A DNA stretch of 64,000 nucleotides from Bacteroidota bacterium (GTDB taxonomy: Bacteria; Bacteroidota; Bacteroidia; JACCXN01): contig JACCXN010000057.1 in assembly GCA_013696965.1 (NCBI GenBank), positions 62,001 to 126,000 of the forward strand. Reading direction: 5' to 3'. The position numbers and the translations under genes are program-made. This document shows, one piece after another, positions 2,840 through 25,360 of the stretch (position 1 is its first letter; each line of letters begins with the position of its first letter). The notes under the pieces were generated by a model. The model was not told the origin of the DNA. It did not search any database and worked only from the letters and a program-made list of their open reading frames with translations.

Positions 2840-3238
2840 ATGGAAAAAGATAAAGTCCCTCAGGATGATTCAAATGTGTTGGAAGGCAAATTAAAAGTAT
2901 TAAAATATGCTGTTGACGAAAACGGGAAATATACCCAAGTCCCTACAGTAGGCTGGGAGCCTGAAAACATTGTATTATCGCAGGCTTGGGAAGAAATTAA
3001 TGAAAAAGTAGAAAGTGTTCGAAAACGTGTTCTTGCTAATGAATTAAGCCCCATTGCATATTACATGGAAAAGCAAATGTTGGATATAAAAATGCTTGCT
3101 CAATATGTCGGGTATTTTGGGTTTCGTGTAAAAATGCATTTGAAACCTGCTAATTTTAAACGATTGTCTGAAAATCAATTGGACAAATATGCAAATGCTT
3201 TTCAAATTACTAAGGAACAACTTTTAAATATTGATTAA
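2840..3238 (+). CDS. Small conserved-looking protein of the flexirubin cluster, unknown function
   Basis: 132 aa, cytoplasmic, with no signal peptide or membrane segment. The N-terminal 60 residues are acidic and Trp-containing (VGWEPENIVLSQAWEEI, about residues 37-53). The C-terminal half (about 70-130) is helical, with MLDIKMLAQYVGYFGFRV followed by LKPANFKRLSENQLDKYANAF. This looks like a small helix-turn-helix or XRE-like helical bundle, but a DNA-binding role is not certain. It sits 57 bp after darB and 59 bp before the BtrH-like gene, so it is probably co-transcribed with the resorcinol genes. I do not recognise a named family. It could be a small regulator or an accessory factor for the acyl-transfer step. 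Confidence 0.75.
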   Translation: MEKDKVPQDDSNVLEGKLKVLKYAVDENGKYTQVPTVGWEPENIVLSQAWEEINEKVESVRKRVLANELSPIAYYMEKQMLDIKMLAQYVGYFGFRVKMHLKPANFKRLSENQLDKYANAFQITKEQLLNID

Positions 3239-3297: not shown

Positions 3298-4299
3298 TTG
3301 AATATAAATTTTATACATAATCAATCAGCTCATTGCGAAAGTGGCGTGGCCTCTAATTTATTGGCTCATCACGGATTGAAATTGAGTGAAGCAATGATAT
3401 TTGGTATTGGTTCTGGATTGTTTTTCGGGCATATTCCATTTTTAAAAGTGAATGGAATACCAGGCACAACCTATCGTATATTACCAGGAATGATTTTTAA
3501 ACGCACCTGTAAGCGTTTAGGAATTCAAATGAAAAGACAGACATTCAGAAATGAAGCAAAAGCAATGGATGAGTTGGATAAAGTGTTGGAAAAAGGAATG
3601 CCAGTAGGTCTTTTAACCAGTGTTTATTATTTGCCCTATTTGCCTTCCGCATTGCGTTTTCACTTTAATGCTCACAATATTGTAGTATATGGAAAAAGCA
3701 ATGGGAATTATTTAGTGAGTGATCCGGTTATGGAAACAGTTTCTGAAATTTCATCAAAAGATTTACAACGTGCACGTTTTGCAAAAGGCGCTTTGGCGCC
3801 CAATGGCAAAATGTATTATCCTATTCATGTGCCTCAAAATATTGATTTACGCAAACCAATTATTGATGGAATTATTAAAACATCAAGTGATATGACCACT
3901 ATTCCTGTTCCACTTTTCGGTGTGAAGGGGGAGAGGTTTCTTGCAAAAAAAATTCGTCAGTATCCAAAAAATCTGGATAAGCGTAAAGCTGCACTTTATT
4001 TGGGAAATATAGTGCGGATGCAAGAAGAAATTGGTACTGGTGGAGCTGGATTTCGTTTTATTTTCGCAGCATTTTTACAAGAAGCCTCAGTTATCTTAAA
4101 TCAGGAATGGTTAATGGAGGTTTCAAAAGAAGTAACTCAAACAGGTGATTGCTGGCGTAATTTTGCTTACAATGCTGCCCGTATCTGCAAAGATCGTGCT
4201 ATTACAGGAGAAAACTACGATAAACTTGCTGATATTATTATGGATTGTGCTTTTCGTGAAGAGCAGATTTTTAATAAACTTAAAAAAATCACCTTGTAA
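3298..4299 (+). CDS. BtrH N-terminal domain protein, putative acyl-ACP:acceptor acyltransferase
   Basis: 333 aa. The N terminus (HNQSAHCESGVASNLL) matches the BtrH/DUF4872 family, whose founding member moves an acyl chain from an acyl carrier protein to an acceptor in butirosin synthesis. The fold is papain-like. Cys13 in HCESG, His126 in NAHNIVVYG and Asp142 in YLVSDP are in the right order for a catalytic triad. The start appears to be TTG at 3298: an in-frame stop (TGA at 3265) lies just upstream, no ATG occurs between, and a later start would remove Cys13. The stop codon overlaps the ATG of the ABC ATPase (TAATG). In this context it is a good candidate for esterifying the aryl polyene to the resorcinol. 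That role is inference. Confidence 0.82.
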   Translation: MNINFIHNQSAHCESGVASNLLAHHGLKLSEAMIFGIGSGLFFGHIPFLKVNGIPGTTYRILPGMIFKRTCKRLGIQMKRQTFRNEAKAMDELDKVLEKGMPVGLLTSVYYLPYLPSALRFHFNAHNIVVYGKSNGNYLVSDPVMETVSEISSKDLQRARFAKGALAPNGKMYYPIHVPQNIDLRKPIIDGIIKTSSDMTTIPVPLFGVKGERFLAKKIRQYPKNLDKRKAALYLGNIVRMQEEIGTGGAGFRFIFAAFLQEASVILNQEWLMEVSKEVTQTGDCWRNFAYNAARICKDRAITGENYDKLADIIMDCAFREEQIFNKLKKITL

Positions 4300-5048
4300 T
4301 GACCACAAACAGTGCAATTCAAGTCAGCCATTTAGTAAAAATCTATAAAGGAGTGCATACTCCGGCCGTTGATGATATTTCCTTTACTATTGAAAAAGGA
4401 TTGATATGGGGGCTTTTAGGGCCAAATGGAGCAGGTAAAACTACTACTTTATCTATTCTTTGTGGCTTACTTAAACAATCAGAGGGAGAAGTTTTAATTA
4501 ATGGTTTACATTATGGAAATCATAAGAACCAGATTAAACACATGATAAGTATTGTTCCACAGGAAATTGCACTTTATCCTACCCTTACTGCATTTGAAAA
4601 TCTTAGGTATATTGGCAATATGTATGGGTTAAAAGGGAATGCTTTAAAACATCGAATTTCAGAATGCCTAAATATTTTTGGTTTAGAACAAAGTATAAAT
4701 AAACAGGTAGGAACCTTTTCAGGCGGCATGAAACGCAGGATTAATTTAATAGCAGGAATTCTAAATCAACCACAAATTTTATTTTTAGATGAACCTACCG
4801 TTGGAATTGATGTTCAGTCACGTAATATTATTACCGAGTATTTATTAAACATGAACAAACAGGGAACAACTATTGTTTATACCTCACATCTAATGGAAGA
4901 GGCAGAAAACCTTTGTTCACATATTGCTATAATTGACCAGGGAAAGATAATTTCTACAGGGAATCCTAAAGATTTAATTCAACAAAACAAGAGTAAAAAT
5001 TTGGAAGATTTGTTTTTAAAACTAACGGGGAGAAAATTAAGAGATTAA
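4299..5048 (+). CDS. ABC transporter ATP-binding protein
   Basis: 249 aa with all ABC ATPase motifs: Walker A GPNGAGKTT (41-49), Q-loop Gln88 (VPQE), signature FSGGM (140-144), Walker B LFLDEP (161-166) and switch His197 (YTSHLM). It resembles the drug/lipid export ATPases (DrrA/CcmA type) that pair with ABC-2 permeases. The start ATG overlaps the stop of the BtrH-like gene, and its own stop overlaps the permease ATG, so translation is probably coupled. Within the cluster it likely powers export of a resorcinol or pigment precursor across the inner membrane. The substrate is inferred from position. Confidence 0.92.
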   Translation: MTTNSAIQVSHLVKIYKGVHTPAVDDISFTIEKGLIWGLLGPNGAGKTTTLSILCGLLKQSEGEVLINGLHYGNHKNQIKHMISIVPQEIALYPTLTAFENLRYIGNMYGLKGNALKHRISECLNIFGLEQSINKQVGTFSGGMKRRINLIAGILNQPQILFLDEPTVGIDVQSRNIITEYLLNMNKQGTTIVYTSHLMEEAENLCSHIAIIDQGKIISTGNPKDLIQQNKSKNLEDLFLKLTGRKLRD

Positions 5049-6328
5049 TGCTTAGATTATTTTCAACCATAAGAAAGGAATTACTCATACTCATAAGGGA
5101 TAGGAGTGGGCTTGCCATAATGTTTTTAATGCCCATGACTCTTGTTACTATTATGGCACTAATACAGGATGGCCCTTTTCGGGACTACCAGGAATTTAAA
5201 ATACCCTTGTTGTTAGTAAATAATGATAGTGGAAGCTTGGGTAAAAAAATTGAGGACGGTTTAATAAATTCAAAAATATTTGAAGTAAGTAATTCCACCA
5301 AATCAGAAAAAGAAACTAGACAGGATATTGCCGAAGGAAAATATGACATAGGTATTATTATTCCTAACAATGCCACAGATCAATTGAATGAAAGAGTTGA
5401 ACGTTTTGTTGCTGAAACCTTGAATTCTGTTGGTATTTCTGACACATTGGAAAAGGAAAATAATAATTCTGAAATTAATTCGGATATCCTTGTTTATTTC
5501 GCCCCTACAATAAAAAAGTCATTTAAGAATGCTGTTTTAAGTTCAATTAAACAAGTTTCATCAAAACTGGAGACACAAACCCTTTTGGATTTTTTTCAAT
5601 CATCCTTAAGAGAATCAACTGGAGAATTGCCTGATGTAAAAAATGAAATTGGTGATTTTGTTAATTTCAGAGAATATGATGCCACTGAATATAGCGGAGA
5701 TAAAATGGAATTGAATTCTGTACAACACAATGTACCAGCGTGGACCTTATTTGGTATGTTTTTTATTGTAATAACCCTTGCTGGAAGCATTATCAAAGAA
5801 AGGGAAGATGGAAGTTATCTTCGAATACTCACTATGCCTGGATCTTATGTTACCGTTATGGCAGGAAAGGTTGTTGCCTTTCTTTTGGTTTGTTTGATAC
5901 AGTGCATGCTCATGCTTTTGGTGGGAATTTATTTAATGCCAATTCTGGGATTGCCTGAATTGGTAATAGGATCTAGTATTGCAGCCATTTTGCTTGTTGC
6001 CTTATGCAGTGCATTGGCCGCTACAGGATATGGGGTTATGATTGGAACTTTTTTTAACACTCACCAACAGTCTTCAACATTTGGTGCTGTTTCAGTAGTT
6101 ATACTGGCTGCATTAGGTGGTATTTGGGTGCCAGTATATGTAATGCCGGAGACCATTAAAATCCTTGCTGAATTCTCCCCTCTTTACTGGGGTTTAAGCG
6201 CTTTTCATGATGTCTTTCTTCAAAATGGAACTGTTGAAACTATTCTGCCTTATGCATACAAATTATTGCTTTTCTTCCTATTTACCATTAGTATTGCATA
6301 TTTGTTTAATAAAGTAAAATCAAATTAA
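5048..6328 (+). CDS. ABC-2 type permease
   Basis: 426 aa. There is one N-terminal membrane segment (about residues 17-38), a large soluble loop of about 190 residues outside the membrane, and then a cluster of five hydrophobic segments from about residue 231 to the C terminus. This is the layout of ABC-2 family membrane subunits (ABC2_membrane_3). It starts within the stop of the ATPase gene (TAATG), so the two form one transporter, presumably a dimer of each subunit. The 134 bp between it and the next ACP gene carry no clear terminator, so transcription may continue into the ACP-ketosynthase cassette. Confidence 0.9.
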   Translation: MLRLFSTIRKELLILIRDRSGLAIMFLMPMTLVTIMALIQDGPFRDYQEFKIPLLLVNNDSGSLGKKIEDGLINSKIFEVSNSTKSEKETRQDIAEGKYDIGIIIPNNATDQLNERVERFVAETLNSVGISDTLEKENNNSEINSDILVYFAPTIKKSFKNAVLSSIKQVSSKLETQTLLDFFQSSLRESTGELPDVKNEIGDFVNFREYDATEYSGDKMELNSVQHNVPAWTLFGMFFIVITLAGSIIKEREDGSYLRILTMPGSYVTVMAGKVVAFLLVCLIQCMLMLLVGIYLMPILGLPELVIGSSIAAILLVALCSALAATGYGVMIGTFFNTHQQSSTFGAVSVVILAALGGIWVPVYVMPETIKILAEFSPLYWGLSAFHDVFLQNGTVETILPYAYKLLLFFLFTISIAYLFNKVKSN

Positions 6329-6462: not shown

Positions 6463-6714
6463 ATGGAAGCATTAATTGAGCAATTGAAAATAGAAATAAT
6501 AGAGCAACTTAATTTAGTTGACATAAAAAAAGAAGACATCACTCCCGACACTCCTCTTTTTGGAATAGGACTTGGCCTGGATTCAATTGATTCATTAGAA
6601 TTAAGCGTGTTATTGGAAAGAAAATACGGGGTTAAAATCACAAATTCACAAGAGGGTAAAAAGGTTTTCCAATCCCTTCGTACCATGGCTGAGTTTATTC
6701 AGTCAAAAAAATAA
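6463..6714 (+). CDS. Acyl carrier protein, cassette 1
   Basis: 83 aa. The phosphopantetheine attachment motif is GLGLDSIDSLEL, with Ser41 as the modified residue. Flanking helices are of normal ACP length. It lies 18 bp before the ketosynthase gene at 6733 and is closely similar to the ACP at 11860-12114 (both begin with a short helix ending EQLNL). AcpS at 24977 is the likely activating enzyme. It is expected to carry the growing aryl polyene chain or one of the resorcinol precursors. Which of the two ACPs serves which arm cannot be read from sequence. Confidence 0.93.
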   Translation: MEALIEQLKIEIIEQLNLVDIKKEDITPDTPLFGIGLGLDSIDSLELSVLLERKYGVKITNSQEGKKVFQSLRTMAEFIQSKK

Positions 6715-6732
6715 TTCTCCAAGCCCCAGCAC

Positions 6733-7935
6733 ATGAGTGAAAAAGTATATGTTACGGGTGTGGGGATTATTTCAGCTATTGGAAATAACATTGCTGAAAC
6801 ATTAAAATCACTAAAAGATCAAAGATCGGGAATTGGTAATTTAAGCTATGTAAATAGCAGACATAAAGATCAACTTTCTGTAGGTGAAGTAAAAAATTCG
6901 AATGAGCAGCTAATGCAGCTTAAGGGTTTACAAAAAGGAAGAAAACAAACTCGTACCTCCTTGCTTGGTATCCATGCAGCCAGGGAAGCGCTTATAAGTG
7001 CGGGGATTGATAATATTAAGGAATTCCGAACAGGAATAATTTCAGCCACAAGTGTTGGTGGAATGGGTATTGTGGAAAATCATTATAAGGACTATTTCGA
7101 TATTCAGAAAAAAGGAGAATTCCTGGAGTATATTCCTACCCTTGATTGTGGTGATAGTACCGAAAGAATTGCTGATGACCTTGGAATTAAAGATTATATT
7201 TCAACCATAAGTACAGCTTGTTCATCCTCCGCTAATTCAATTATGTTTGGTGCACGTTTAATAAAAATGGGTTTGCTGGACCGCGTGGTAGTAGGAGGAA
7301 CTGACTCCCTTTCGCGTTATACTATTAATGGTTTTTTGAGTTTAAAGATTTTGGATAAGGATCCCTGCAAACCTTTTGATGGCTTGCGTAAAGGCCTGAA
7401 TTTAGGAGAAGGTGCTGGTTTTATTGTTTTGGAATCAGAAAAATCAGCAAAGAAAAAAGAAATACTTTGTGAATTATCTGGTTATGGTAATTCAAATGAT
7501 GCATTCCACCAGACAGCCTCCTCTCCAGATGGAGCTGGAGCATTTCTTGCAATGCAAAAATCCTTTCAGGTTAGCGGGTTAAGTCCAAACAAAATTGATT
7601 ATATAAATGCTCATGGAACAGGTACGGAAGTAAATGATCTATCTGAAGGACTGGCTATTGAACGAATCTTTGGTAATAATGTGCCTCCTGTTAGCTCCAC
7701 AAAAGCATTTACCGGACATACACTGGCAGCAGCAGGCGGAATTGAGGCCGTTTTATCTGTTTTAGCAATTAAATACAACACCATTTATCCCAATTTAAAT
7801 CATAGTAACAACATGCCTGAACTTTGTTTTACACCTGAAAAATCTTTCCTTACCAATAAGTCTGTAAATCATGTTCTGTCTAATTCTTTTGGATTTGGAG
7901 GTAACACCTCTTCCTTAATTTTTTCAAAGCTATAA
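6733..7935 (+). CDS. Beta-ketoacyl-ACP synthase (KAS II type), cassette 1
   Basis: 400 aa with a complete Cys-His-His triad: Cys163 in STACSSSAN, His294 in NAHGTGTE and His329 in FTGHTLAAAGG. This is the FabF/aryl-polyene ketosynthase layout, catalysing decarboxylative Claisen condensation with malonyl-ACP. It is followed after only 3 bp by a ketosynthase-like protein lacking the catalytic residues, so the two probably form a KS-CLF heterodimer, as established for aryl polyene and type II polyketide systems. A second KS of the same type lies at 12122-13321 with very similar motifs. The ATG at 6733 gives a standard KAS N terminus (VYVTGVGIISAIG). Confidence 0.93.
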   Translation: MSEKVYVTGVGIISAIGNNIAETLKSLKDQRSGIGNLSYVNSRHKDQLSVGEVKNSNEQLMQLKGLQKGRKQTRTSLLGIHAAREALISAGIDNIKEFRTGIISATSVGGMGIVENHYKDYFDIQKKGEFLEYIPTLDCGDSTERIADDLGIKDYISTISTACSSSANSIMFGARLIKMGLLDRVVVGGTDSLSRYTINGFLSLKILDKDPCKPFDGLRKGLNLGEGAGFIVLESEKSAKKKEILCELSGYGNSNDAFHQTASSPDGAGAFLAMQKSFQVSGLSPNKIDYINAHGTGTEVNDLSEGLAIERIFGNNVPPVSSTKAFTGHTLAAAGGIEAVLSVLAIKYNTIYPNLNHSNNMPELCFTPEKSFLTNKSVNHVLSNSFGFGGNTSSLIFSKL

Positions 7936-7938
7936 GTT

Positions 7939-9003
7939 ATGGAAGCTTTTATTCGAGGTACAGGAATTATCTCACCCCAAAATACCTTTAATACAGCTAA
8001 TTTTCTTTTAAACCCAGTTGAAACAGAAAGCAACTTTTTGCATTGTATTGAACCCTCTTACCTGGAATTTTTAAATCCTGTTATGGCTCGTAGAATGGGA
8101 AGAATCATAAAAATGGGTATTGCCGCAGCAAGTATTTGCCTGAAAGATGCTAAGTTAGAAATGCCAGATGCAATTATCACTGGAACGGCTTTAGGTTGTC
8201 TTGGGGATACTGAGAAATTTTTAACTGCCATTATTGAGGATGATGAACTGTTTTTAACCCCAACATCCTTTATTCAATCCATACAAAATACTGTAAGTGC
8301 CCAAATTGCGCTACAGTTAAAATGCATGAATTACAATTTCACTTATGTTCATAAGGGATTCTCTTTTGAAAGTGCGGTTTTAGATGCTATGATGCTTATT
8401 GCTGAGGGTAATGCAAACAATGTGCTAATTGGGGGATTAGATGAAATGACAGAAAAAAACTTTTTGGTATATGACCGCATAAATCTATGGAAAAAAGAAA
8501 AAATTAAAAGCAGTGAATTAATTCATAGTAAAACCATTGGTACAATTGCAGGAGAGGGAGCGGCCTTTTTTGTTTTAAGCAACCAGGAAAATGAAAATAA
8601 TTATGCAAAACTAAAGGGTGTTAAAACAATATACAAACCCAACTCTCAACAAGACATAGAAAAAGAAATTTCCTTTATGTTAGCAGACAATAATTTAAAC
8701 ATAAAGAGCATTGATCTTGTAATATATGGAATTAACGGAGACAATAATTTGGATTCTATAAGTAATTTTTTAAAAGACAATTATTTAAAAAACAGTGCAG
8801 CTGCATACTTTAAACACCTTTGTGGAGAATATCAAACATCAGGTAGTTTTGCAATGTGGATGGCTGCAAAAATTTTAAAAACCCAAACAATACCTGAACA
8901 TATACTTATTGGTACTTATGAACTGGACTCTATTAACAATATATTGATTTACAATAATTTTGGTCATGAAAATCATGTCCTTTATTTATTTTCAAGAGTG
9001 TGA
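7939..9003 (+). CDS. Ketosynthase-like chain-length-factor partner, cassette 1
   Basis: 354 aa, thiolase fold, beginning MEAFIRGTGIISPQ. The active-site Cys of the partner KS is replaced: the aligned segment reads TYVHKGFSFES, with Gly140 at the Cys position. The AHGTGT His motif has become YGINGD (about 263-268). A KHLCGEY block (292-298) takes the place of the KAFTGHT region, keeping Lys and one His. Loss of Cys and the first His fits a chain-length-factor (KS-beta) subunit. It is 3 bp downstream of its KS. It parallels the gene at 13324-14382, in which the Cys position is Asn140. No clear terminator follows the stop codon. Confidence 0.85.
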   Translation: MEAFIRGTGIISPQNTFNTANFLLNPVETESNFLHCIEPSYLEFLNPVMARRMGRIIKMGIAAASICLKDAKLEMPDAIITGTALGCLGDTEKFLTAIIEDDELFLTPTSFIQSIQNTVSAQIALQLKCMNYNFTYVHKGFSFESAVLDAMMLIAEGNANNVLIGGLDEMTEKNFLVYDRINLWKKEKIKSSELIHSKTIGTIAGEGAAFFVLSNQENENNYAKLKGVKTIYKPNSQQDIEKEISFMLADNNLNIKSIDLVIYGINGDNNLDSISNFLKDNYLKNSAAAYFKHLCGEYQTSGSFAMWMAAKILKTQTIPEHILIGTYELDSINNILIYNNFGHENHVLYLFSRV

Positions 9004-9158
9004 TTTTTTATTCTGAATTTATTCATTTAATCTTTGATTTTTGTTAATATTGTAAAATTATTAATATTATTTGCTAGAAAAATTGCATTGTGAATTTATT
9101 GATGTTGATATATTATTAACTTGTAAATAGAATATTTTAATCTTAAACTATAATTTAT

Positions 9159-10790
9159 ATGAGAACACAAAACATTTTAATTTTAATTCTATTAATCCTT
9201 CCACTGGGATTGTTTTCACAAGACAAATTTACTGTGAGAAGCCCTTATCCTGTTGTGGATGCTGGAAGCAAAAATTATTTTAACAAGGGCGATGAAATTT
9301 TGACAGTAAAAATTCATGGAAAAAAAGTATTCATGCAGCGTTTTAACACTAGTAATAGTAATCTGCCTAAAATCAATATAAGTATAATGCCTGATGGTTT
9401 TTCGCTTGAAAGGGTTCTTGAATTAAATAATAAATATTACCTGTTTTATTCTCTTTGGGATGGTGCCAACAAAAAAGAACAGCTTTATAGTCGTGAAATT
9501 GATTTCGATTCTGGAAAATTTATGGATAAGGAGAAATTATTGGTAAAAGTAAATGGTAAAATAACAGGTTCAGTTGCAGCAGTTGTATCTGGTGGGTTTG
9601 GTTGGATTTTTGGAGGAATAGTGGATAAGTTTGATTTCCAATATTCTCAGGATTATTCTAAGCTTATGATTACCTATCGTTTAAAGCCGGATATTAAAAA
9701 TGATGCTAAAAATTTTGATAAGATTGGCATGTATGTTTTTAGTAATAATTTAGATCCTATTTGGAATCAGGAAGTGGTTATGCCCTATACTGAAAAAAAG
9801 ATGAATAATATTGATTATTCAATCGATAATAAAGGTAACACATATATTCTTGCCACTGTTTTTGAAGATATTGAACCAAAAGCAAAAAAAAACAGCGATG
9901 AACCAAATTACCATATAGAATTGTTGAAAGTTAATGCTAAGACCCAGGAAATGGAAAAATCGGTTATTAAGCTTAATAATATGTTTATTAAATCTGTTTG
10001 GCTCTATGAATCTCCAAAAGGGAAAATGGTATGTGCAGGCTTTTATAACAAAGGAATTAATTCTAAATCTACGGATGGAATACTTATTTGCAACATTGAT
10101 AAAAAAGGTGAAGTAATTGATATTCGTTCTTATGAAATTCCTGTTAAAATTCTTAACATGTATCAATCAGCAAAAATTCAGAAGAAAAACAATAAAAAAG
10201 ATGAAAAAGCTGTTGCCGAATTTGAAAATCTTAAATTAAGGAATGTTTATTTTGAAGATGATGGAAGCATTGTATTGGTTGGAGAACAGCATTTTATTAC
10301 ATCCCATACAACTTGTAATTCAAAAGGAAATTGCCGTACAACTTATGTTTACCATTATAATGATATTCTTGTAACAAAAATTGATAGTAAAGGAGAATTA
10401 GCGTGGATGCAAAAGCTTCCTAAACGTCAAAGAGGAGGAAATGGTAAAGGTGGAATGGGATTTAAATTTATTTCAGGAGATAATAATTATAATTTCCTTT
10501 TTCTTGACAATGAAAAAAACCTTGATCTTTCTATGAATGAAATTCCAGCATTGCACCATGATGGAGCAGGGGGATTTTTAACCCTTTACAAGGTGGATAA
10601 AGATTTTGGCAATGTATCCAAGGTATCAATTGTAAATTTCAAAGCAGTTAAACTAGCTAAGGATGCAAAAAAAGGTCAGCCTGTCTACCAGTTTTCAACG
10701 AGTCGTATTTTGCCCTTATCTCGTAAGCAATTTGCCTTTGAGGTTTACAAAAAGAAAAAGCAGGATGTTTTAATTAAAGTTGATTTGTAA
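9159..10790 (+). CDS. Secreted beta-rich protein between the two KS cassettes, unknown function
   Basis: 543 aa with a signal peptide ending near LPLGLFSQ (residue 21). The mature part has repeated beta-strand pairs of the form 'hydrophobic strand, polar turn, KVD/KID...GE' (for example around 285-305 and 400-415), compatible with a beta-propeller, but I cannot name a family. A short glycine-rich hydrophobic patch lies at 136-154. There are a few lysine-rich stretches and no T9SS sorting domain. It lies 155 bp after the CLF gene and ends before a strong terminator hairpin (10850-10904), so it may be the last gene of the first transcription unit. Whether it has a role in the pigment pathway is unknown. 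Confidence 0.8.
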   Translation: MRTQNILILILLILPLGLFSQDKFTVRSPYPVVDAGSKNYFNKGDEILTVKIHGKKVFMQRFNTSNSNLPKINISIMPDGFSLERVLELNNKYYLFYSLWDGANKKEQLYSREIDFDSGKFMDKEKLLVKVNGKITGSVAAVVSGGFGWIFGGIVDKFDFQYSQDYSKLMITYRLKPDIKNDAKNFDKIGMYVFSNNLDPIWNQEVVMPYTEKKMNNIDYSIDNKGNTYILATVFEDIEPKAKKNSDEPNYHIELLKVNAKTQEMEKSVIKLNNMFIKSVWLYESPKGKMVCAGFYNKGINSKSTDGILICNIDKKGEVIDIRSYEIPVKILNMYQSAKIQKKNNKKDEKAVAEFENLKLRNVYFEDDGSIVLVGEQHFITSHTTCNSKGNCRTTYVYHYNDILVTKIDSKGELAWMQKLPKRQRGGNGKGGMGFKFISGDNNYNFLFLDNEKNLDLSMNEIPALHHDGAGGFLTLYKVDKDFGNVSKVSIVNFKAVKLAKDAKKGQPVYQFSTSRILPLSRKQFAFEVYKKKKQDVLIKVDL

Positions 10791-10849
10791 ACAATAAATC
10801 AATAGAATAAACGAAAAATTAATTTGCATTATTTTTCGGGTTTTTCCCT

Positions 10850-10904
10850 AATAATTTTTATAAAGCCCCTTGATCAATAATCAAGGGGCTTTATAAAAAT
10901 TATT
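10850..10904. terminator. Perfect 25-bp inverted repeat, likely terminator
   Basis: Arms 10850-10874 and 10880-10904 are exact reverse complements (25 bp) around a 5-base loop (CAATA). The core is GCCCCTTGAT and the outer part is AT-rich, so the transcript would end in a U-rich arm on either strand. It follows the 9159-10790 gene by 59 bp and separates the two ACP/KS cassettes. Confidence 0.85.
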
Positions 10905-10906
10905 AA

Positions 10907-11040
10907 TGTCCGGTAAAAAAGGAAAGATTCCTCACTACACTGCGTTCGTTCGGAATGACATTGAAAGTGAGAACAACTAAAACTCTTGGAAAGCCTGTCA
11001 TCAGGGTGTATCGAGGAATCTAAATTTTTTTTACCGGACA
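10907..11040. repeat. 134-bp MITE-like element with inverted ends
   Basis: The element starts TGTCCGGTAAAAAA (10907) and ends TTTTTTACCGGACA (11040), a perfect 14-bp terminal inverted repeat. Further in, GATTCCTC on the left pairs with GAGGAATC on the right. The interior contains CGTTCGGAATGACA, related to the tandem array at 49566-50476. A diverged partial copy of its right end is found at 31198-31247. It has no coding capacity and could be a small non-autonomous mobile element or a REP-like intergenic repeat. The remaining bases 11041-11188 are AT-rich with no feature. Confidence 0.7.
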
Positions 11041-11188
11041 GCAGTAATTTTAAATATGAAATTTTTTTGAAACTTCCCGGCTAAGAAAAAATTGTGGCAA
11101 GTGGATTAAATAAATCTTAGCTTTTATAGTTTAATTTACTTTGATAAAGAGATAAACTAACAAGTTAATGCAAAAGAATCTAATAAAA

Positions 11189-11214
11189 TTGAATTAAATT
11201 AAATTTTAATTTTG
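11189..11214 (+). promoter_or_regulatory. Candidate Bacteroidota promoter for the second cassette
   Basis: TAATTTTG at 11207-11214 matches the Bacteroidota -7 consensus TAnnTTTG and lies 28 bp before the ATG at 11243. A TTG at 11189-11191 is the nearest -33-like element, but the 15-base spacing is shorter than usual. Its place right after a strong terminator makes a new promoter here plausible. Confidence 0.4.
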
Positions 11215-11242
11215 CAAGGAATCAAAAAGAGAAAATCACAAC

Positions 11243-11857
11243 ATGTTTAGTATAAAGCGTTATAGCAGCATTAACAATAATATGGTACATCAAAATGGCC
11301 ATTTGCTGTTTGATCTTCCCAGCTTTTCTTTTGAAGAGTTTTCGGATGAAATTTACCGCATTTATAAGATTGCTTATCCGAAATATCACAAAATGGATAA
11401 TCTTTCAAAACTTGGTTTTCTTACTTCTGAAGTGTTATTGAAAGAAATGCCTTTAAAGGAAATCTATGATGAAAATAAAATAGGTATTGTTTTGTCAAAT
11501 AAAAATTCAAGTCTGGATACAGATATTAAATACAATAATTTGGTAAAAAAAGGTATAGCTAGTCCTGCCATTTTTGTATATTCGCTGCCAAACATAGTGA
11601 TAGGGGAAATTTGTATTAAGAACGGAATAAAAGGAGAAAACACTTTTTTTGTTTCTAATAGTTATGATATCCCTTCCCAGGTTGATTACGTAGGTAGCCT
11701 TTTAAAAGCAGGTATTGTAGATGCCTGTATTTGTGGTTGGATTGAAATTTTGGAGGGCAGCTACAAGTCCTTTTTATTTTTGGTGGATTCGCATGAACAA
11801 AAAGAACTGATACCATTTACTGTGAAAAACGTTGAATTATTATATAATACATTATAA
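11243..11857 (+). CDS. Truncated ketosynthase-like protein without the active-site cysteine
   Basis: 204 aa. Residues about 78-168 keep the pattern of a KAS N-terminal half: GIVLSNKNSS, then SPAIFVYSLPNIVIGEI (107-123), then LLKAGIVDACICGW (153-166), which aligns with the LIKSG...VVAGG block of true KS enzymes. On that alignment the catalytic Cys position is Ser140 (VSNSYD), and the whole C-terminal His-bearing half is absent. The first 60 residues are unlike KAS. It lies 2 bp before the second ACP gene. It could be a scaffold or a specificity subunit rather than a catalyst. The short reading frame is intact and flanked by tight gene spacing, so I do not call it a pseudogene. Confidence 0.7.
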   Translation: MFSIKRYSSINNNMVHQNGHLLFDLPSFSFEEFSDEIYRIYKIAYPKYHKMDNLSKLGFLTSEVLLKEMPLKEIYDENKIGIVLSNKNSSLDTDIKYNNLVKKGIASPAIFVYSLPNIVIGEICIKNGIKGENTFFVSNSYDIPSQVDYVGSLLKAGIVDACICGWIEILEGSYKSFLFLVDSHEQKELIPFTVKNVELLYNTL

Positions 11858-11859
11858 AG

Positions 11860-12114
11860 ATGAATGAATTAATACAAAATCTGAAAGTTCAGATTATAGA
11901 ACAATTAAATTTAAAGGACATTAAGCCTGAAGATATTGGCGATAACCAGCCCTTATTTGTTGAGGGCCTTGGATTGGATTCAATAGATGCACTCGAATTA
12001 ATCGTATTGCTTCAACAAAATTATGGGATAAAATTAGCCAGGGCTGAGGAAGGACCTGTTGTTTTTAAATCCGTTAGTTCTATGGCCAATTACATAATGG
12101 CCAATAAGAAATAA
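11860..12114 (+). CDS. Acyl carrier protein, cassette 2
   Basis: 84 aa with attachment motif GLGLDSIDALEL and Ser41 as the phosphopantetheine site. It is a clear paralogue of the ACP at 6463-6714 with the same helix boundaries. It is separated by 2 bp from the upstream KS-like remnant and by 7 bp from the downstream ketosynthase, so it belongs to one operon with them. Confidence 0.93.
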   Translation: MNELIQNLKVQIIEQLNLKDIKPEDIGDNQPLFVEGLGLDSIDALELIVLLQQNYGIKLARAEEGPVVFKSVSSMANYIMANKK

Positions 12115-12121
12115 TTCTTAA

Positions 12122-13321
12122 ATGAATAAACGTATATATGTTGCAGGTGCAGGTATTATTTCTGCCATTGGTAACGATATAGAGCAAACCCTTTTGAGTT
12201 TTGAAAAACATCAATCAGGAGTTAGTTCTGCCATGCACCTTACAACCCGTCATAAAAGTGAGTTTCCCTTGGCTGAGGTTAAAATGAGTAACCAAGAGTT
12301 AGGTGAACTTACTGGGCTCAATGAGAATTTAAGCCGTACTGTTTTGCTTAGCTACTACGCTGCAAAACAAGCCGTTTCTCCCTTTTTAACTGATGTTTTA
12401 AAGAAATTCAAAATTGGTTTTATTTCTGCTAGTTCTGTTGGAGGAATGGATAAAACAGAATTTTTTTTCCAGGATTTTTTAAAAGACAATAATACAGGGA
12501 ATCTTCGCGATGTTATGTTACACGATTGTGGAAAACATACTGACTTTGTGGCTGAAAAACTAGGTATAAACGATTTTGTAACAACCATTAGCACCGCCTG
12601 TTCATCGTCTGCTAATGCAATTATGTTGGCTGGAAGGCTCATTAAAAGTGGACAGCTGGATATTGTTGTGGCAGGTGGAGTAGATGCACTAACCAGATTT
12701 ACGCTAAATGGTTTTAATTCCCTAATGATTGTAGATAGAGAACAATGCCGGCCACTTGATCAAACAAGGGCAGGACTTAATCTTGGAGAAGGTGCAGCTT
12801 ATTTGGTTTTAATGAGTGAAAAGGCAGCTGAAGCTTTTTCAGCATCACCTTTATGTGAACTTACCGGATACTGCAATACCAATGATTCATTTCATCAAAC
12901 AGCACTCTCCGATGAAGGAAACGGTCCTTACCTTGCAATGATGGGGGCTTTAAAAATGAGCAATTTAAAAACTTCAGAAATTAGTTACATCAATATGCAC
13001 GGAACCGGTACCCAAAATAATGATAATGCAGAAGGAAAAGCAGTAGAAAGGGTTTTTCATCCTGATTATCCAAAATTAAGTTCCACTAAATCTTTTACCG
13101 GTCATACTTTAGGCGCCAGCGGGGCAGTTGAAGCTGTTTTTGCTGCATTAGCAATTAGCAAAGGACTCGTTTTTCCAAATTTTAATTTCAAAGAAACAAT
13201 TCAGGATTTACATATTAAACCAGAAACCAGTTTTCAAAAAAATCTTGAAATTAATCACGTCTTGTCAAATTCCTTTGGTTTTGGCGGTAATTGTACTTCT
13301 CTGATATTTTCAAAAGCTTAA
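12122..13321 (+). CDS. Beta-ketoacyl-ACP synthase (KAS II type), cassette 2
   Basis: 399 aa with the full triad: Cys160 in STACSSSAN, His293 in NMHGTGTQ and His328 in FTGHTLGASGA. It is strongly similar to the KS at 6733-7935 along its length (both start with a V-GAGIISAIG-like strand and end SNSFGFGGN...SLIFSK), so the two cassettes arose by duplication. It is expected to work with the inactive partner encoded 2 bp downstream. Two KS-CLF pairs may build different parts of the molecule, for example the aryl polyene and the acyl precursors of the resorcinol, but this is inference. Confidence 0.93.
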   Translation: MNKRIYVAGAGIISAIGNDIEQTLLSFEKHQSGVSSAMHLTTRHKSEFPLAEVKMSNQELGELTGLNENLSRTVLLSYYAAKQAVSPFLTDVLKKFKIGFISASSVGGMDKTEFFFQDFLKDNNTGNLRDVMLHDCGKHTDFVAEKLGINDFVTTISTACSSSANAIMLAGRLIKSGQLDIVVAGGVDALTRFTLNGFNSLMIVDREQCRPLDQTRAGLNLGEGAAYLVLMSEKAAEAFSASPLCELTGYCNTNDSFHQTALSDEGNGPYLAMMGALKMSNLKTSEISYINMHGTGTQNNDNAEGKAVERVFHPDYPKLSSTKSFTGHTLGASGAVEAVFAALAISKGLVFPNFNFKETIQDLHIKPETSFQKNLEINHVLSNSFGFGGNCTSLIFSKA

Positions 13322-13323
13322 AT

Positions 13324-14382
13324 ATGGACGTTTTTATTAAAGGCATGGGAAACATATCTCCTCAAAGAACTTTTGATGGAAATACTATTGAAAATGCTTT
13401 CACTTCCTTTGAGGCAAACAGACTAAAATGTATCGAACCTGACTATTCTCATTTTGTAGATGCAAAACAAATTCGCAGGATGAGTAGGGTTATTAAAATG
13501 GGAGTTGCCTCATCAATGCTTGCCATGAAAGACGCAGGTTTGCAAAAACCAGAAGCAGTAATTGTTGGAACAGCCTTGGGCTGTTTGGAAGATACTTCCA
13601 CCTTTTTATCTAAAATGGTGGAATACAAAGAAGATATGTTGAGCCCTACAGCTTTTATACATTCTACCCACAATACAATTGCCTCTCAAATTGCTTTATT
13701 GTTTGAATGCAGAGGTTATAACAGTACCTATGTACACCGAAATATTTCCTTTGAAAGTGCATTAATTGATGCAATAATGCTTTTGCAGGAAGGATCCATA
13801 ACTAATGCACTGGTGGGTGGAATTGATGAATTAACCAACACAAGTTTTAAAATATTGGAGCGGCTGGGACATGTTAAACAATCAGAAGGATTAAACACAG
13901 CTAATTTATATCAAAGCACATCCAAAGGGTCTATAGCAGGAGAAGGATCCGCATTTTTTTCACTGGTTAACAAACCCGATAACACTTGTTATGCCAAGAT
14001 AAAAGCAATAAAAACCATCTCTTTTACTTCATCTGATCAAGTTTGCGAAAAAGCTCTGGCAATGCTAAAAGAAAATGGAATTAAAGAACCGAATGTTTTA
14101 ATTTCAGCATACAATGGCGATTTGGAGGATGATAATACTACAAGTACAGTTGTAAATTCATTGGGCATGCAAAGTAAGGTTTTAAAATACAAGCATTTAT
14201 GTGGAGAATACGCTACCTCTGCAGCTTTTGCAATGTGGTTAGCCGCTGTTATAATCAAAAATAAACGACTTCCACAAGAATTTATCACTGCACCTAATTC
14301 TGAACAAAAGATTGAAAATATATTGATTTATAATCACTATAAAAAAATTCATCATTCACTTATTTTACTTTCTTCATGTTAA
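13324..14382 (+). CDS. Ketosynthase-like chain-length-factor partner, cassette 2
   Basis: 352 aa when started at the ATG at 13324, which gives MDVFIKGMGNISPQ, parallel to the cassette 1 partner; an upstream in-frame start at 13291 would only add an unrelated 11-residue tail overlapping the KS gene. The Cys position holds Asn140 (TYVHRNISFES), the AHGTGT motif has become SAYNGD, and KHLCGEY is kept. This is a non-catalytic KS-beta type subunit. Its last codons overlap the deacetylase start by 7 bp. The Gly/Asn difference between the two partners at residue 140 is the clearest difference at the former active site. Confidence 0.85.
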   Translation: MDVFIKGMGNISPQRTFDGNTIENAFTSFEANRLKCIEPDYSHFVDAKQIRRMSRVIKMGVASSMLAMKDAGLQKPEAVIVGTALGCLEDTSTFLSKMVEYKEDMLSPTAFIHSTHNTIASQIALLFECRGYNSTYVHRNISFESALIDAIMLLQEGSITNALVGGIDELTNTSFKILERLGHVKQSEGLNTANLYQSTSKGSIAGEGSAFFSLVNKPDNTCYAKIKAIKTISFTSSDQVCEKALAMLKENGIKEPNVLISAYNGDLEDDNTTSTVVNSLGMQSKVLKYKHLCGEYATSAAFAMWLAAVIIKNKRLPQEFITAPNSEQKIENILIYNHYKKIHHSLILLSSC

Positions 14383-15149
14383 CCTGTAGGAATTCTACCA
14401 TTCTTTTTACAGTTTTGATAGGAGCACTTTTATTTGTTGATTTTTTAAGCTTTGTCCCACTCTGGTTATTTATTGTGACAGTTGGAGCGTATGCTGCAAT
14501 TTTATTTTTCGGTTCCTATTACATAGGTTCTGGTTTCCATATTCCTATTATTTGCAAAGCTTACACTGATCAAAGGGAAGTTGCATTGACCTTTGATGAC
14601 GGACCTGTAGAAAAAAACACTTCCATTATACTCGATATTTTGAAGAAGAATAACATACAGGCTGCATTCTTTTGTATTGGAAAGCGCATGAACATTAACA
14701 ATTCACTTGTGCATAGAATTAATGAAGAAGGCCATATAATAGGGAACCATAGTTATTCACATCATTTTTTTTTCGACCTTTTTTCTAAAAATAAAATGTT
14801 GGGTGAATTAAGGGAAACAAACAAAATTGCTCAGGCCATAATTCACAAAAATTTAGCTTTGTTTCGACCACCTTATGGAGTAACTACCCCTGTTCTGGCT
14901 AAGGCTATAAAGCAGGGTGGGCTTACACCAATTGGTTGGAGTCTTAGGTCAATGGATACAACGATTAAAGATAAAAACAGATTGGTTAATAAAATAAACA
15001 ATAATATAAAACCAGGAGATGTTTTACTAATGCATGATTCAGCTGATGTTACAGCCGAGTGTTTACAGGAAATTATTGATTCTGTTAGTAGAAAAGGATT
15101 CAAATTTGTAAGATTGGATCGATTATTGAAAATTCAGGCTTATGTTTAA
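14376..15149 (+). CDS. Membrane-anchored polysaccharide deacetylase family protein (NodB fold)
   Basis: 257 aa. Two hydrophobic segments fill residues 8-50. The catalytic domain has LTFDDGP (71-77, Asp74/Asp75), HSYSH (125-129, the two zinc His), RPPYG (164-168), then GW (about 198) and LLMHD near the C terminus, so all carbohydrate-esterase-4 motifs are present. Such enzymes remove N- or O-acetyl groups from sugars. In a pigment operon with a GT2 enzyme it may trim a glycosylated or lipid-linked intermediate. It overlaps the upstream CLF gene by 7 bp and the downstream LolA-like gene by 8 bp, so it is translated as part of the operon. Confidence 0.88.
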   Translation: MLTCRNSTILFTVLIGALLFVDFLSFVPLWLFIVTVGAYAAILFFGSYYIGSGFHIPIICKAYTDQREVALTFDDGPVEKNTSIILDILKKNNIQAAFFCIGKRMNINNSLVHRINEEGHIIGNHSYSHHFFFDLFSKNKMLGELRETNKIAQAIIHKNLALFRPPYGVTTPVLAKAIKQGGLTPIGWSLRSMDTTIKDKNRLVNKINNNIKPGDVLLMHDSADVTAECLQEIIDSVSRKGFKFVRLDRLLKIQAYV

Positions 15150-15780
15150 AAAAACCATTGTATTAATTTTTTTCTCCTGTTTGTATTTTAATGCAAATGC
15201 TCAAGTTGATGGCTATAAAGCTGTGTCCGATGTGGAGGGTTTTAAAAAAAAACTTGCCAATTCCGCTAATGCAACTCAAAGCATAAGGAGCAATTTCGTT
15301 CAGGAAAAGAACCTTAGTGTATTATCAGAAAAAATAGTTTCCAAGGGTGAATTTGCTTTTAAAAAGCAAAATATGGTACGCATGGAATATAAGTTACCTT
15401 TTAAATATTTAATGGTTATCAATCAGGACAAGGTGATGATAAAGGATGAACAGAAAACAAATTCATTCTCCTCCAAAAGCAATAAACTCTTTGCAGTTAT
15501 CAATAATATTGTTGTTGATTGCGTACAGGGAACAGCCCTAATGAATAAAGATTTCTCTTCAAAGATATTTGAAAATGATAAATATTTCCTTTTGGTTCTT
15601 ACTCCCCAGAAAAAAGAGTTGAAAGAATTTTTCACAACCATCAGTATTTATTTAGATAAAAATGATATTTCAGTTTATAAAATGGACATGTTAGAGCCTA
15701 CTGGAGACAATACTGTTATTACTTTTTTAAATAAAGAATTTAATGTAAATATTCCTGATGCGGAATTTATTATTAATTAG
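15142..15780 (+). CDS. LolA-like outer-membrane lipoprotein carrier protein
   Basis: 212 aa with a signal peptide (residues 1-21, cut near NANAQ). The mature protein has the LolA/LppM-like layout: SIRSNFVQEKNLSVLS (about 48-63), GEFAFKKQNMVRMEYKLP (about 71-88) and an alternating beta pattern to the end. LolA-type carriers shuttle lipidated molecules through the periplasm, and aryl polyene clusters typically carry one. It overlaps the deacetylase by 8 bp and the lipoprotein gene by 23 bp. It probably moves the lipid-like pigment or its anchor to the outer membrane rather than serving general lipoprotein traffic. Confidence 0.82.
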   Translation: MFKKTIVLIFFSCLYFNANAQVDGYKAVSDVEGFKKKLANSANATQSIRSNFVQEKNLSVLSEKIVSKGEFAFKKQNMVRMEYKLPFKYLMVINQDKVMIKDEQKTNSFSSKSNKLFAVINNIVVDCVQGTALMNKDFSSKIFENDKYFLLVLTPQKKELKEFFTTISIYLDKNDISVYKMDMLEPTGDNTVITFLNKEFNVNIPDAEFIIN

Positions 15781-16375
15781 TATTTGTTGTTTTTTGCTTG
15801 GTTGTTTTCAATCCCCTTACCAGAATCTGCAGGCTTCTTCTGAAAATTCATCCTGTCTTGGTAATTTAAAACCAAATTTCACCTCCGTGCTTTATATGGC
15901 ACATGTAAATGTTGTGGGAAAACATTTAAGCGGATTGTTATTGTTTAAAAAAATGCCGGATAATACCACAAGAGTTGTTTTTTCAAATGAAATGGGAGTT
16001 AAATTTTTCGATTTTGAATATGCTGAATCAGGTTTCAAGGTTATACATTGTATTAAACATTTAGATAGAAAAGCAGTAATAAAACAGCTGAAAAAAGACA
16101 TTGGCCTAGTAATAATGCACAACATTGATGTTTCAACTGCCAAAATTTTACATAAAGACAATCAAAATTATTTTGGATTTTTTTCGGGCAGGGAGCAAAC
16201 ATATTACTTAACTAATAAAACATGCACTCAATTGATAGGAATTGAAAATGCATCTAAAAAGCAAAAAAAACTCATTATAAATTTAACGGATTATAAAGGT
16301 GGAATGGCAGATTCTATTTACATTGCACATCAAACCTTTGAATTTAATATTAGTTTAAAACAACTTGAAAGATAA
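15758..16375 (+). CDS. Lipoprotein of the pigment operon, unknown function
   Basis: 205 aa. A lipoprotein signal peptide is visible with lipobox LLGC and Cys16 as the lipidation site, which supports the ATG at 15758 even though it overlaps the LolA-like gene by 23 bp. The mature part is a mix of beta strands and charged loops with no motif that I recognise. Aryl polyene clusters commonly encode a lipoprotein beside the LolA-like carrier, so a joint role in pigment trafficking is likely. The stop overlaps the next ATG (TAATG). Confidence 0.8.
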   Translation: MRNLLLISICCFLLGCFQSPYQNLQASSENSSCLGNLKPNFTSVLYMAHVNVVGKHLSGLLLFKKMPDNTTRVVFSNEMGVKFFDFEYAESGFKVIHCIKHLDRKAVIKQLKKDIGLVIMHNIDVSTAKILHKDNQNYFGFFSGREQTYYLTNKTCTQLIGIENASKKQKKLIINLTDYKGGMADSIYIAHQTFEFNISLKQLER

Positions 16376-16749
16376 TGCTTAAAGACACTTTCTACAAAGT
16401 AGTTTCTTCCCTTGAAAAAGATGTATCTTCTTTTCAGTGGTCAATTATTATTAACAAGGAACATGAGATATTTGAAGGCCATTTTCCAGGTCTCCCTATT
16501 GTTCCGGGAGTTTGTATGATGCAGATAATAAAAGAACTCTTGCAGGATAAATTGCGAATAAAACTAAATCTTAAAAGTGCTTCAAACATTAAATTTTTAT
16601 CCCTTATAAATCCCACCGAAACAAACCAGGTAGATGTAGATGTAGAAGTTAAATATACATCATCTGAAACCGGTACTTATATAGCGGATGGAATTATTTC
16701 TGTAAATGCAATTCCATATTTTAAAATTGTGAGAGCAGTGTACAATTAA
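16375..16749 (+). CDS. Hot-dog fold dehydratase-like protein (FabZ/ApeI type)
   Basis: 124 aa single hot-dog domain. FEGHFPGLPIVPGVCMMQ (33-50) aligns with the FabZ active-site segment and retains the catalytic His36. The FabZ catalytic Glu, 14 residues later, is Gln50 here. The substitution makes simple FabZ-type dehydration uncertain, although hot-dog proteins of aryl polyene clusters do act as dehydratases. It is the only hot-dog gene in the window. It overlaps the lipoprotein gene by 1 bp and is 3 bp from the glycosyltransferase gene. Expected role: dehydration of 3-hydroxyacyl-ACP during polyene elongation, or binding of that intermediate. Confidence 0.82.
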   Translation: MLKDTFYKVVSSLEKDVSSFQWSIIINKEHEIFEGHFPGLPIVPGVCMMQIIKELLQDKLRIKLNLKSASNIKFLSLINPTETNQVDVDVEVKYTSSETGTYIADGIISVNAIPYFKIVRAVYN

Positions 16750-16752
16750 TTT

Positions 16753-17952
16753 ATGGACTTAGTAAAACCATATCAGCAAAAGTTCATTGACCACAAGATT
16801 TGTGTAATCATTCCTACTTATAATAATGCAACAACGCTTAAAAAAGTAATAGATGATGTTTTGGAATATACTGATAATGTTATAGTAGTAAATGATGGCT
16901 CCACAGATGGAACATCCGATATACTTGCTTTATATAAAGACATTAAACAGGTAAATTACAGAAATAATGTTGGCAAAGGCTGGGCACTTCGAAAAGGATT
17001 CGAATTTGCTATTGAGCAAGGATTTGACCAGGCCATTACCATAGATTCAGATGGGCAGCATTTTGCAAAGGATCTTCCACAATTTATTGAAAAGCTTGAA
17101 AACATTGGAACTTCTCTGATAATAGGAGCGCGCAATATGGACCAGGACTCAGTTCCTGGAAAAAGTAGTTTCGGTAATAAATTTTCTAATTTTTGGTTTT
17201 GGGTGGAAACAGGGATAAAAGCTCCCGATACTCAGTCGGGTTACCGTTTGTATCCGCTTACTCAACTAAAGGAAATTAAATTTTTTTCCAGGAAATTTGA
17301 ATTTGAAATTGAAGTAATTGTTAGAGCGGCATGGAAAGGGATAAAAATTGAATCAGTTCCAGTACAGGTTTATTACGCACCTGATGGAGAGCGCGTTTCT
17401 CATTTTCGACCCTTTACAGATTTTTCGAAAATCAGTGTTTTGAATACTATTCTTGTAATTATCACTTTTGTATATATAAACCCGCGTAATTTTTTCTTTG
17501 GAATTTTTAAAAGATCAACTTATAGCAGTTTGAAAAATCAAATTTTCAATCCCTATGAATCAAACTTGTTAACCGCATCCTCTGTGGCATTCGGTGTATT
17601 TATGGGAATTGTTCCTATTTGGGGGTTTCAACTTGTAATTGCTATATTTCTGGCAATTTTGTTAAGGCTTAATAAAGCTTTGGTCATAATTAGTGCAAAC
17701 ATCAGTATTCCCCCAATGATTCCTGTAATTGTTTTTTTGAGTTATAAAATGGGTCATATTTGGGTGGGTGAAAGTTTTACTTCGTTAATTTTTACAGAAA
17801 AAATAACTTTGGAAACAATACATTTGAATTTTATGCAATATGTTTACGGAAGTATTACCCTTGCTGTAATGGCCGCTGTATTCTTTGGGTCAATAGTGTA
17901 TGTATTGTTGACTTTTTTTAAGAAAAAGAAAATCAGAATTGATAATGAGTAA
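16753..17952 (+). CDS. Family 2 glycosyltransferase fused to a DUF2062 membrane domain
   Basis: 399 aa. The N-terminal GT-A domain shows PTYNNATTL (21-29), NDGSTDGT (47-54) and the metal-binding DSDGQH (98-103), with YRLYP and FEFEIEV later in the domain, as in dolichol-phosphate-mannose-synthase-like enzymes. After a hydrophobic segment (about 228-250) comes a DUF2062 domain (about 258-395) with FGVFMGIVPIWGFQ and further membrane helices. It is expected to transfer a sugar at the inner membrane face. Aryl polyene clusters usually have a glycosyltransferase/acyltransferase pair, and the PlsC domain in the next gene could be the partner. Its stop overlaps the next gene start by 8 bp. Confidence 0.88.
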   Translation: MDLVKPYQQKFIDHKICVIIPTYNNATTLKKVIDDVLEYTDNVIVVNDGSTDGTSDILALYKDIKQVNYRNNVGKGWALRKGFEFAIEQGFDQAITIDSDGQHFAKDLPQFIEKLENIGTSLIIGARNMDQDSVPGKSSFGNKFSNFWFWVETGIKAPDTQSGYRLYPLTQLKEIKFFSRKFEFEIEVIVRAAWKGIKIESVPVQVYYAPDGERVSHFRPFTDFSKISVLNTILVIITFVYINPRNFFFGIFKRSTYSSLKNQIFNPYESNLLTASSVAFGVFMGIVPIWGFQLVIAIFLAILLRLNKALVIISANISIPPMIPVIVFLSYKMGHIWVGESFTSLIFTEKITLETIHLNFMQYVYGSITLAVMAAVFFGSIVYVLLTFFKKKKIRIDNE

Positions 17953-24980: not shown

Positions 24981-25351
24981 TTGCAGGCATAGGCATTGAT
25001 TTGATAGAAACAGAGCGCGTGGCAGAAAAAATTGCCAAGGAAGGGGGTTTCAGGGAATACGTGTTTTCAGAATCAGAAATTCAATATTGTGAAAGTAAAA
25101 CCAATAAGGCAGAAAATTATGCAGCACGGTTTGCTGCAAAAGAGGCCTTGTTAAAGGCTATTGGTACAGGTATGATGGGAAATTTTGTTTTCAATGAAAT
25201 GGAAATTGCCACGGATGATATGGGAAAACCTTCATTTAATTTTACAGGAGGATCAAAAATATTGATGGATTCAAGAAAATATTCAAATATTATGGTATCC
25301 TTATCCCATCTAAAAGGGATAGCTTGCGCCATGGTAGTAATAGAATTATAA
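24977..25351 (+). CDS. acpS: Holo-[acyl-carrier-protein] synthase
   Basis: 124 aa with the AcpS signature: IGIDLIETERV at 5-15 (metal-binding Asp8) and RFAAKEALLKAIGTG at 51-65 (Lys55/Glu56). The length is normal for a trimeric AcpS. It transfers 4'-phosphopantetheine from CoA to the ACP serine. Because it lies in an operon with the pathway genes (overlapping the C45 gene by 4 bp), it probably serves the ACPs at 6463 and 11860. It could also be the cell's only AcpS; this window cannot tell. Confidence 0.93.
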   Translation: MIAGIGIDLIETERVAEKIAKEGGFREYVFSESEIQYCESKTNKAENYAARFAAKEALLKAIGTGMMGNFVFNEMEIATDDMGKPSFNFTGGSKILMDSRKYSNIMVSLSHLKGIACAMVVIEL

Positions 25352-25360
25352 TAGAACAAT

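Follow-up and report, generated by a model that had tools for sequence, protein, structure and literature searches.

The closest described systems are the flexirubin genes flxA-flxY and the dar (resorcinol) operon of Chitinophaga pinensis (PMC3992019), the dar operon of Azoarcus sp. BH72 (PMC3949708) and the aryl polyene ApeO-ApeC/ApeR systems of E. coli CFT073, X. doucetiae and A. baumannii. The locus compared with them here lies in a window of 64,000 nucleotides from a Bacteroidota bacterium (contig JACCXN010000057.1, positions 62,001 to 126,000). The gene order acyl carrier protein (ACP), ketosynthase (KS), inactive KS partner or chain-length factor (CLF) occurs in it twice, at 6463-9003 (cassette A) and 11860-14382 (cassette B), both triplets being found exactly where an earlier note on this DNA had placed them. 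The locus is a joined dar + flx cluster, since A closes the dar operon and B is flxM-N-O, with A being of polyene-type descent by sequence.

The flx genes of C. pinensis (strain YS-16; L193) and C. filiformis (L197) follow the order FlxC-D-E-F-G-H-I-J-K-L-M-N-O-P-...-W, as they do here, and FlxM-N-O corresponds to cassette B. The Flx letters follow PMC3992019, whose text names FlxC, I, L, N and O as KSs, P as deacetylase and S as dehydratase, and also V, W and Y. The dar operon of both species (L238, L239) terminates in a second ACP-KS-CLF set, which occupies the place of cassette A. The dar and flx loci of C. pinensis are apart, whereas they are joined in the window, and cassette A belongs to another KS/CLF lineage than C. 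pinensis darJK. The Azoarcus operon, darA-B-D-E-F-(G-H)-I-C-J-K, is from a different phylum and has its resorcinol genes, ABC transporter, ACP, KS and further gene in matching order; its darG/H are absent from this locus. Its tail is darC-darJ-darK (Table 1, PMC3949708), listed there as ACP, KS and hypothetical protein; DarK is likened to the CLF of cassette A by position. The aryl polyene systems share with this locus an ApeE-like ACP, an ApeO-like KS (31-34%) and an inactive KS partner. They differ in that the partners here are not half-size (about 350 amino acids (aa) each in A and B), that two KS-CLF units plus FlxI-FlxL are present, and that the polyene ends on a resorcinol. The merged single-cassette dar + flx clusters of family f20 (e.g. 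L047, L049) encode an A-like KS (67-70%) and CLF (56-64%), and DarA, DarB and ABC proteins at 58-77%. They have one cassette only, at the flxM-N-O place, and keep the His-Met-His triad described below.

The dar module, the two cassettes and the junction between them are as follows (+, forward strand;., no strand).

553-1470, +: DarA, resorcinol-forming aromatase (position and synteny; gene order compared with Azoarcus Table 1, PMC3949708).
1640-2782, +: DarB ketosynthase (NF053539 resorcinol_DarB, 582.8 bits; cut-off, 550).
2840-3238, +: DarG-family protein, in the darD position of Azoarcus (NF053536, above cut-off).
3298-4299, +: BtrH-like protein, darE position (gene order).
4299-6328, +: ABC transporter ATPase and permease, darF and darI positions (gene order).
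6463-6714, +: ACP of cassette A, darC position (PF00550; NF006617, above cut-off; 44% to E. coli ApeE).
6733-7935, +: ketosynthase of cassette A (KSA), darJ position, with L137/K205 in place of H/M (PF00109/PF02801, tree, signature).
7939-9003, +: inactive partner (CLF) of cassette A, darK position, with Gly140 and Q116 (PF13723/PF00109; AlphaFold2 model).
9159-10790, +: 543-aa gene between cassettes A and B (no Pfam or NCBIfam match).
10855-10899, +: terminator-like hairpin of 20 pairs between both transcription units.
10905-11045,.: dispersed repeat (141 bp) at the junction of both units.
11243-11857, +: FlxL, half-size chain-length-factor-like protein of 204 aa, first of the flxL-M-N-O unit (AlphaFold2 model, Foldseek).
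11860-12114, +: ACP of cassette B, FlxM (PF00550, NF006617; synteny with C. pinensis L193).
12122-13321, +: ketosynthase of cassette B (KSB), FlxN, with the His-Met signature present (Pfam, synteny, tree, signature).
13324-14382, +: inactive partner (CLF) of cassette B, FlxO, with Asn140 and the His116 equivalent present (Pfam, alignment).

Cassette B is flxMNO of the polyene cluster, and the dar operon ends with cassette A. The genes for DarA and DarB are adjacent; DarB is recognised above its NCBIfam cut-off, DarA by position and by homology to dar-operon genes. The ACP-KS-CLF tail follows the ABC permease in the manner of darC-J-K (permease end, 6328; ACP start, 6463), and the same permease-ACP-KS-CLF order is found in L073, L238 and L239. 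Upstream of the window, the same contig (L010) encodes tyrosine ammonia-lyase (TAL), ketoreductase (KR), a FlxC-like KS, ACP, acyltransferase (AT), dehydratase (DH), thioesterase (TE), a FlxI-like KS and methyltransferase (MT). L010 and the window together give the set TAL-KR-KS-ACP-AT-DH-TE-KS-MT...FlxL-M-N-O-P-...-W-Y in the order of C. pinensis and C. filiformis. The exceptions are FlxK, displaced to 27712, and the dar module, inserted after MT. Two cassettes per dar-bearing genome are ordinary: of 47 genomes that were sampled and encode a normal-sized DarB, about 16 have at least two KSs of the cassette type and about 31 at least one, all cassette counts per genome being lower bounds. The mapped dar operons contain KS, CLF and ACP but no obvious KR, DH or enoylreductase, which suits a unit producing beta-ketoacyl-ACP.

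The similarity of the two cassettes, also pointed out earlier, is far beyond chance: pairwise identity is 56.6% (ACP), 50.6% (KS) and 44.3% (partner), and the CLF of B retrieves that of A at E 1.9e-90. At these identities the two cassettes are old copies. Cys163, His294, Lys324 and His329 (KSA numbering) are intact in KSA and KSB. The aligned Cys column of the partners holds Gly140 in A and Asn140 in B. The KS-CLF arrangement of type II polyketide synthases, an active KS with a Cys-less partner that keeps the KS fold, is found here; the fold was modelled for the CLF of A only (AlphaFold2, predicted local distance difference test (pLDDT) 92.6, KS/CLF fold). Against NF006618 (aryl polyene ApeO-like KS), KSA scores 318.7 bits and KSB 307.2 bits, both under the cut-off of 407. 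The Gly140/Asn140 difference was correctly read in the earlier note, and does not serve as a mark of cassette difference or as a specificity marker. Gly is dominant in both polyene and dar contexts, and the marker is rejected because Asn recurs within polyene-context cassettes (seven of them, spread over three or more distinct groups in the KS tree).

The origin of the cassettes was analysed with a KS + CLF tree of 55 cassettes; genes were assigned by best BLAST match to the locus's own genes, and context labels are automatic. The nearest relative is G296, a Bacteroidetes genome assembled from a metagenome; its cassette A pairs with cassette A of the window (100/99), inside a clade that holds the sole cassettes of family f20 (100/100). 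Cassette B groups with B of G296, G175 and G301 (100/100), within the flxMNO group of Chitinophaga, Mucilaginibacter and Ferruginibacter (100/100). A single clade of A + B is rejected (approximately unbiased (AU) test, p = 6e-14), as is one origin of all dar-context cassettes (p 6e-5). Membership of A in the main dar-type KS/CLF clade is ruled out by the trees and the topology test, A falling with the polyene-context cassettes of f20. Sequence places the descent of A among polyene-type cassettes, its closest kin being the sole cassettes of the f20 merged clusters. The placements of the Chitinophaga dar, f9 and tandem copies are weak.

The cassettes had been taken in the earlier note for duplicates of each other, and it had named as contrary to this a tree in which they are not sister copies but belong to different known clades with the same function in all strains; the first half of this is what the trees give. 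A recent tandem duplication within the cluster would account for the same gene order at short distance, and tandem cassettes of possibly such origin occur in uncultured Bacteroidales (L175, L177, L200, L243). It is nevertheless very improbable here and is ruled out by the tree and the AU test: identity is only 44-57%, A and B nest in different clades, and the same two-way split is found on two contigs of G296. In that genome, one contig carries the dar module including A and another carries flxL-M-N-O, the break falling exactly between the CLF of A and FlxL. Compared singly, cassette A and the DarA, DarB and ABC genes have their closest counterparts in f20 or G296, and most of the other genes have theirs in G296 or f59. 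The locus unites two modules of different histories, on the grounds of the tree placements, the per-gene nearest relatives and the contig split in G296. The modules may owe their union to horizontal transfer, with an f20-like lineage as donor of the dar module, or to differential retention; the RpoB tree does not resolve the place of the host between the f20 and f59 lineages.

Cassette A and FlxL are separated by the unrelated 543-aa gene, a strong terminator hairpin and the dispersed repeat. Because the hairpin (10855-10899) and the 141-bp repeat are placed between the 543-aa gene and FlxL, cassette A most likely closes one transcription unit and the unit of cassette B opens another. No match to the Bacteroidota-type promoter pattern was found upstream of flxL, the window matching it no more than by chance, and a sigma-70 scan gave no excess. 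FlxL directly precedes cassette B and has no match in Pfam or NCBIfam. Its AlphaFold2 model (pLDDT 94) has KS-CLF chains as best PDB matches in Foldseek (AntDE (anthraquinone), ishigamide and ApeO-ApeC complexes), so that FlxL is probably a half-size chain-length factor, its predicted fold resembling KS-CLF partners including ApeC. It may pair with FlxI, giving a third KS-CLF pair. The repeat (10905-11045) has inverted-repeat ends, TGTCCGGTAAAAA, and about five near-full-length copies in the genome. The 543-aa protein is signal-peptide-like and without known domain; the sole homologue found (31%) is divergently oriented and adjoins flxL in the nearest relative (L236:16010-17632).

The difference between the cassettes that follows their context is a residue triad, KS137-KS205-CLF116. 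There are 207 KS + CLF columns at least 90% fixed in flx-context cassettes. Four of these (KS137, KS205, CLF87, CLF116) are changed in all three other lineages (Chitinophaga dar, main dar clade, tandem first copies). Eight of the 207 are changed in A, including three of those four; none is changed in its sister family f20. The triad is His-Met-His in 101/109 flx-context (polyene) cassettes, Leu-Lys-Gln in A, Leu-Lys-Tyr in Chitinophaga dar, Tyr-x-x in the main dar clade and Tyr-Lys-Tyr in the tandem first copies. The same positions are altered in most other dar-context cassettes. Exactly one His-Met-His cassette is present in each of the 18 two-cassette loci or genomes first examined (18/18). 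As this rule was found post hoc, another 11 two-cassette genomes were checked against it; at readable positions it holds in 8, and the 3 exceptions are all from family f9. CLF His116 is shared with E. coli ApeC. In related KSs, the KS137 stretch supplies pocket residues, such as AbApeO His138 (PMC8358021); Val142/Met146 of KasA shift with the gate (PMC9519891). In the uncultured Bacteroidales L175, L177, L200 and L243, tandem KS-CLF units are in the flx position, the first with Tyr-Lys-Tyr and the second with His-Met-His; in L175 and L177, the partner in the first copy carries Cys where it is normally lost.

These residues suggest that a few amino-acid changes tune each cassette to its own pigment half. 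The reading favoured, with moderate confidence, is that each module of the joined cluster has its own ACP and KS-CLF, A being re-tuned for resorcinol alkyl chains and B serving the aryl polyene. FlxM-N-O, with the flx reductase and dehydratases, would extend 4-coumaroyl starters into the aryl polyene. KS products are beta-ketoacyl-ACPs. KSA and its CLF would form a heterodimer with their own ACP and supply DarB with a beta-ketoacyl-ACP chain of set length; DarB would condense this chain with a second acyl unit, and DarA would aromatise the ring. On this reading, KS H137L, KS M205K and CLF H116Q are among the changes that would have adapted cassette A, formerly a polyene cassette, to alkyl chains. 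DarB links two acyl units that come from fatty acid metabolism (PMC3949708). The polyene versus resorcinol specialisation raised in the earlier note is supported by inference, with B as flxMNO, A as dar tail and A altered at three polyene-fixed positions; local duplication and Gly/Asn as its cause are not. A wider proposal is held more tentatively, as a possibility slightly short of even: dar operons may repeatedly have recruited polyene-type ACP-KS-CLF cassettes, re-tuned at the same positions (KS 137, KS 205, CLF 116), so that the signature would tell which synthases build resorcinol chains and which build polyene chains. Among such recruitments, cassette A would be a recent and clean case, because its sisters are still engaged in polyene synthesis. 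As some of the tree placements are weakly resolved, independent changes can be counted only approximately.

Several observations weigh against this assignment of roles. DarA and DarB of C. pinensis alone yielded a flexirubin-type resorcinol in E. coli (PMC3992019), so that a dedicated cassette is not strictly needed and the host pool can stand in for it; the host pool may likewise substitute for cassette A in many one-cassette genomes. In the about 31 of 47 dar-bearing genomes with at least one cassette, no second one was counted (lower bounds). The ancestry of A lies in cassettes that serve polyene clusters elsewhere. In family f9 (G008, G049, G209; L250-L253, L076, L079), both cassettes retain the His pair, and KS205 of the flx copy is Ser. 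The exact pocket place of KS137 is unsure because the alignment to ApeO has an indel there.

Some of these points would also fit the alternative that both cassettes serve polyene synthesis, each at its own stage or chain length like ApeR and ApeO-ApeC, the place of A in the dar operon being incidental. The polyene-type descent of A, the sufficiency of DarA and DarB in E. coli and the two aryl polyene KSs of Acinetobacter, which are complementary in vitro (PMC8358021), agree with it. It is considered unlikely, as the second cassette of Chitinophaga and many other genomes is inside dar operons, away from flx, polyene-fixed positions are lost in A and most other dar-context cassettes, and FlxC already provides a KS resembling ApeR (36.7% to the E. 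coli protein). Redundancy is judged quite unlikely: cluster joining would have brought A and B together, either serving both chains, with A drifting. Many dar-bearing genomes do show a single cassette, by counts that are lower bounds, and f20-type clusters run on one A-like cassette. Both lineages with A have, however, preserved its catalytic residues; His-Met-His is retained in sole A-like cassettes but not in A of two-cassette genomes; and changes at the same positions in separate lineages are not favoured by drift alone.

In the open literature searched, no role for the extra ACP-KS-CLF genes of dar operons appears to have been reported. Should the signature hold, KS-CLF pairs could be assigned by sequence to either half of a flexirubin, polyene or resorcinol, and exchanging the three residues would directly test KS-CLF chain choice. 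The joined cluster shows how modules with separate histories unite in one pigment locus.

The flx set continues beyond cassette B to about 28.95 kb of the window.

14376-16749, +: FlxP (polysaccharide deacetylase), LolA-like protein, 205-aa protein and FlxS (dehydratase-like) (PF01522 for FlxP; synteny with C. pinensis).
16753-26644, +: remaining flx genes, for glycosyltransferase, MMPL exporter-acyltransferase fusion, CrtI-like FlxV, AAT-domain FlxW, phosphopantetheinyl transferase and CoA ligase FlxY.
27712-28953, +: FlxK-like flavin halogenase/oxidoreductase (PF04820; synteny).

The FlxK-like gene is displaced to the far cluster end; in Chitinophaga it is between the methyltransferase and FlxL. 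A viral contig scan found nothing, and a search for the same gene order returned the locus's own genome as the sole match. From 34125 to 63825, the window encodes a block of large proteins, secreted or at the cell surface, that contain SprB, PKD and type IX secretion system (T9SS) sorting domains.

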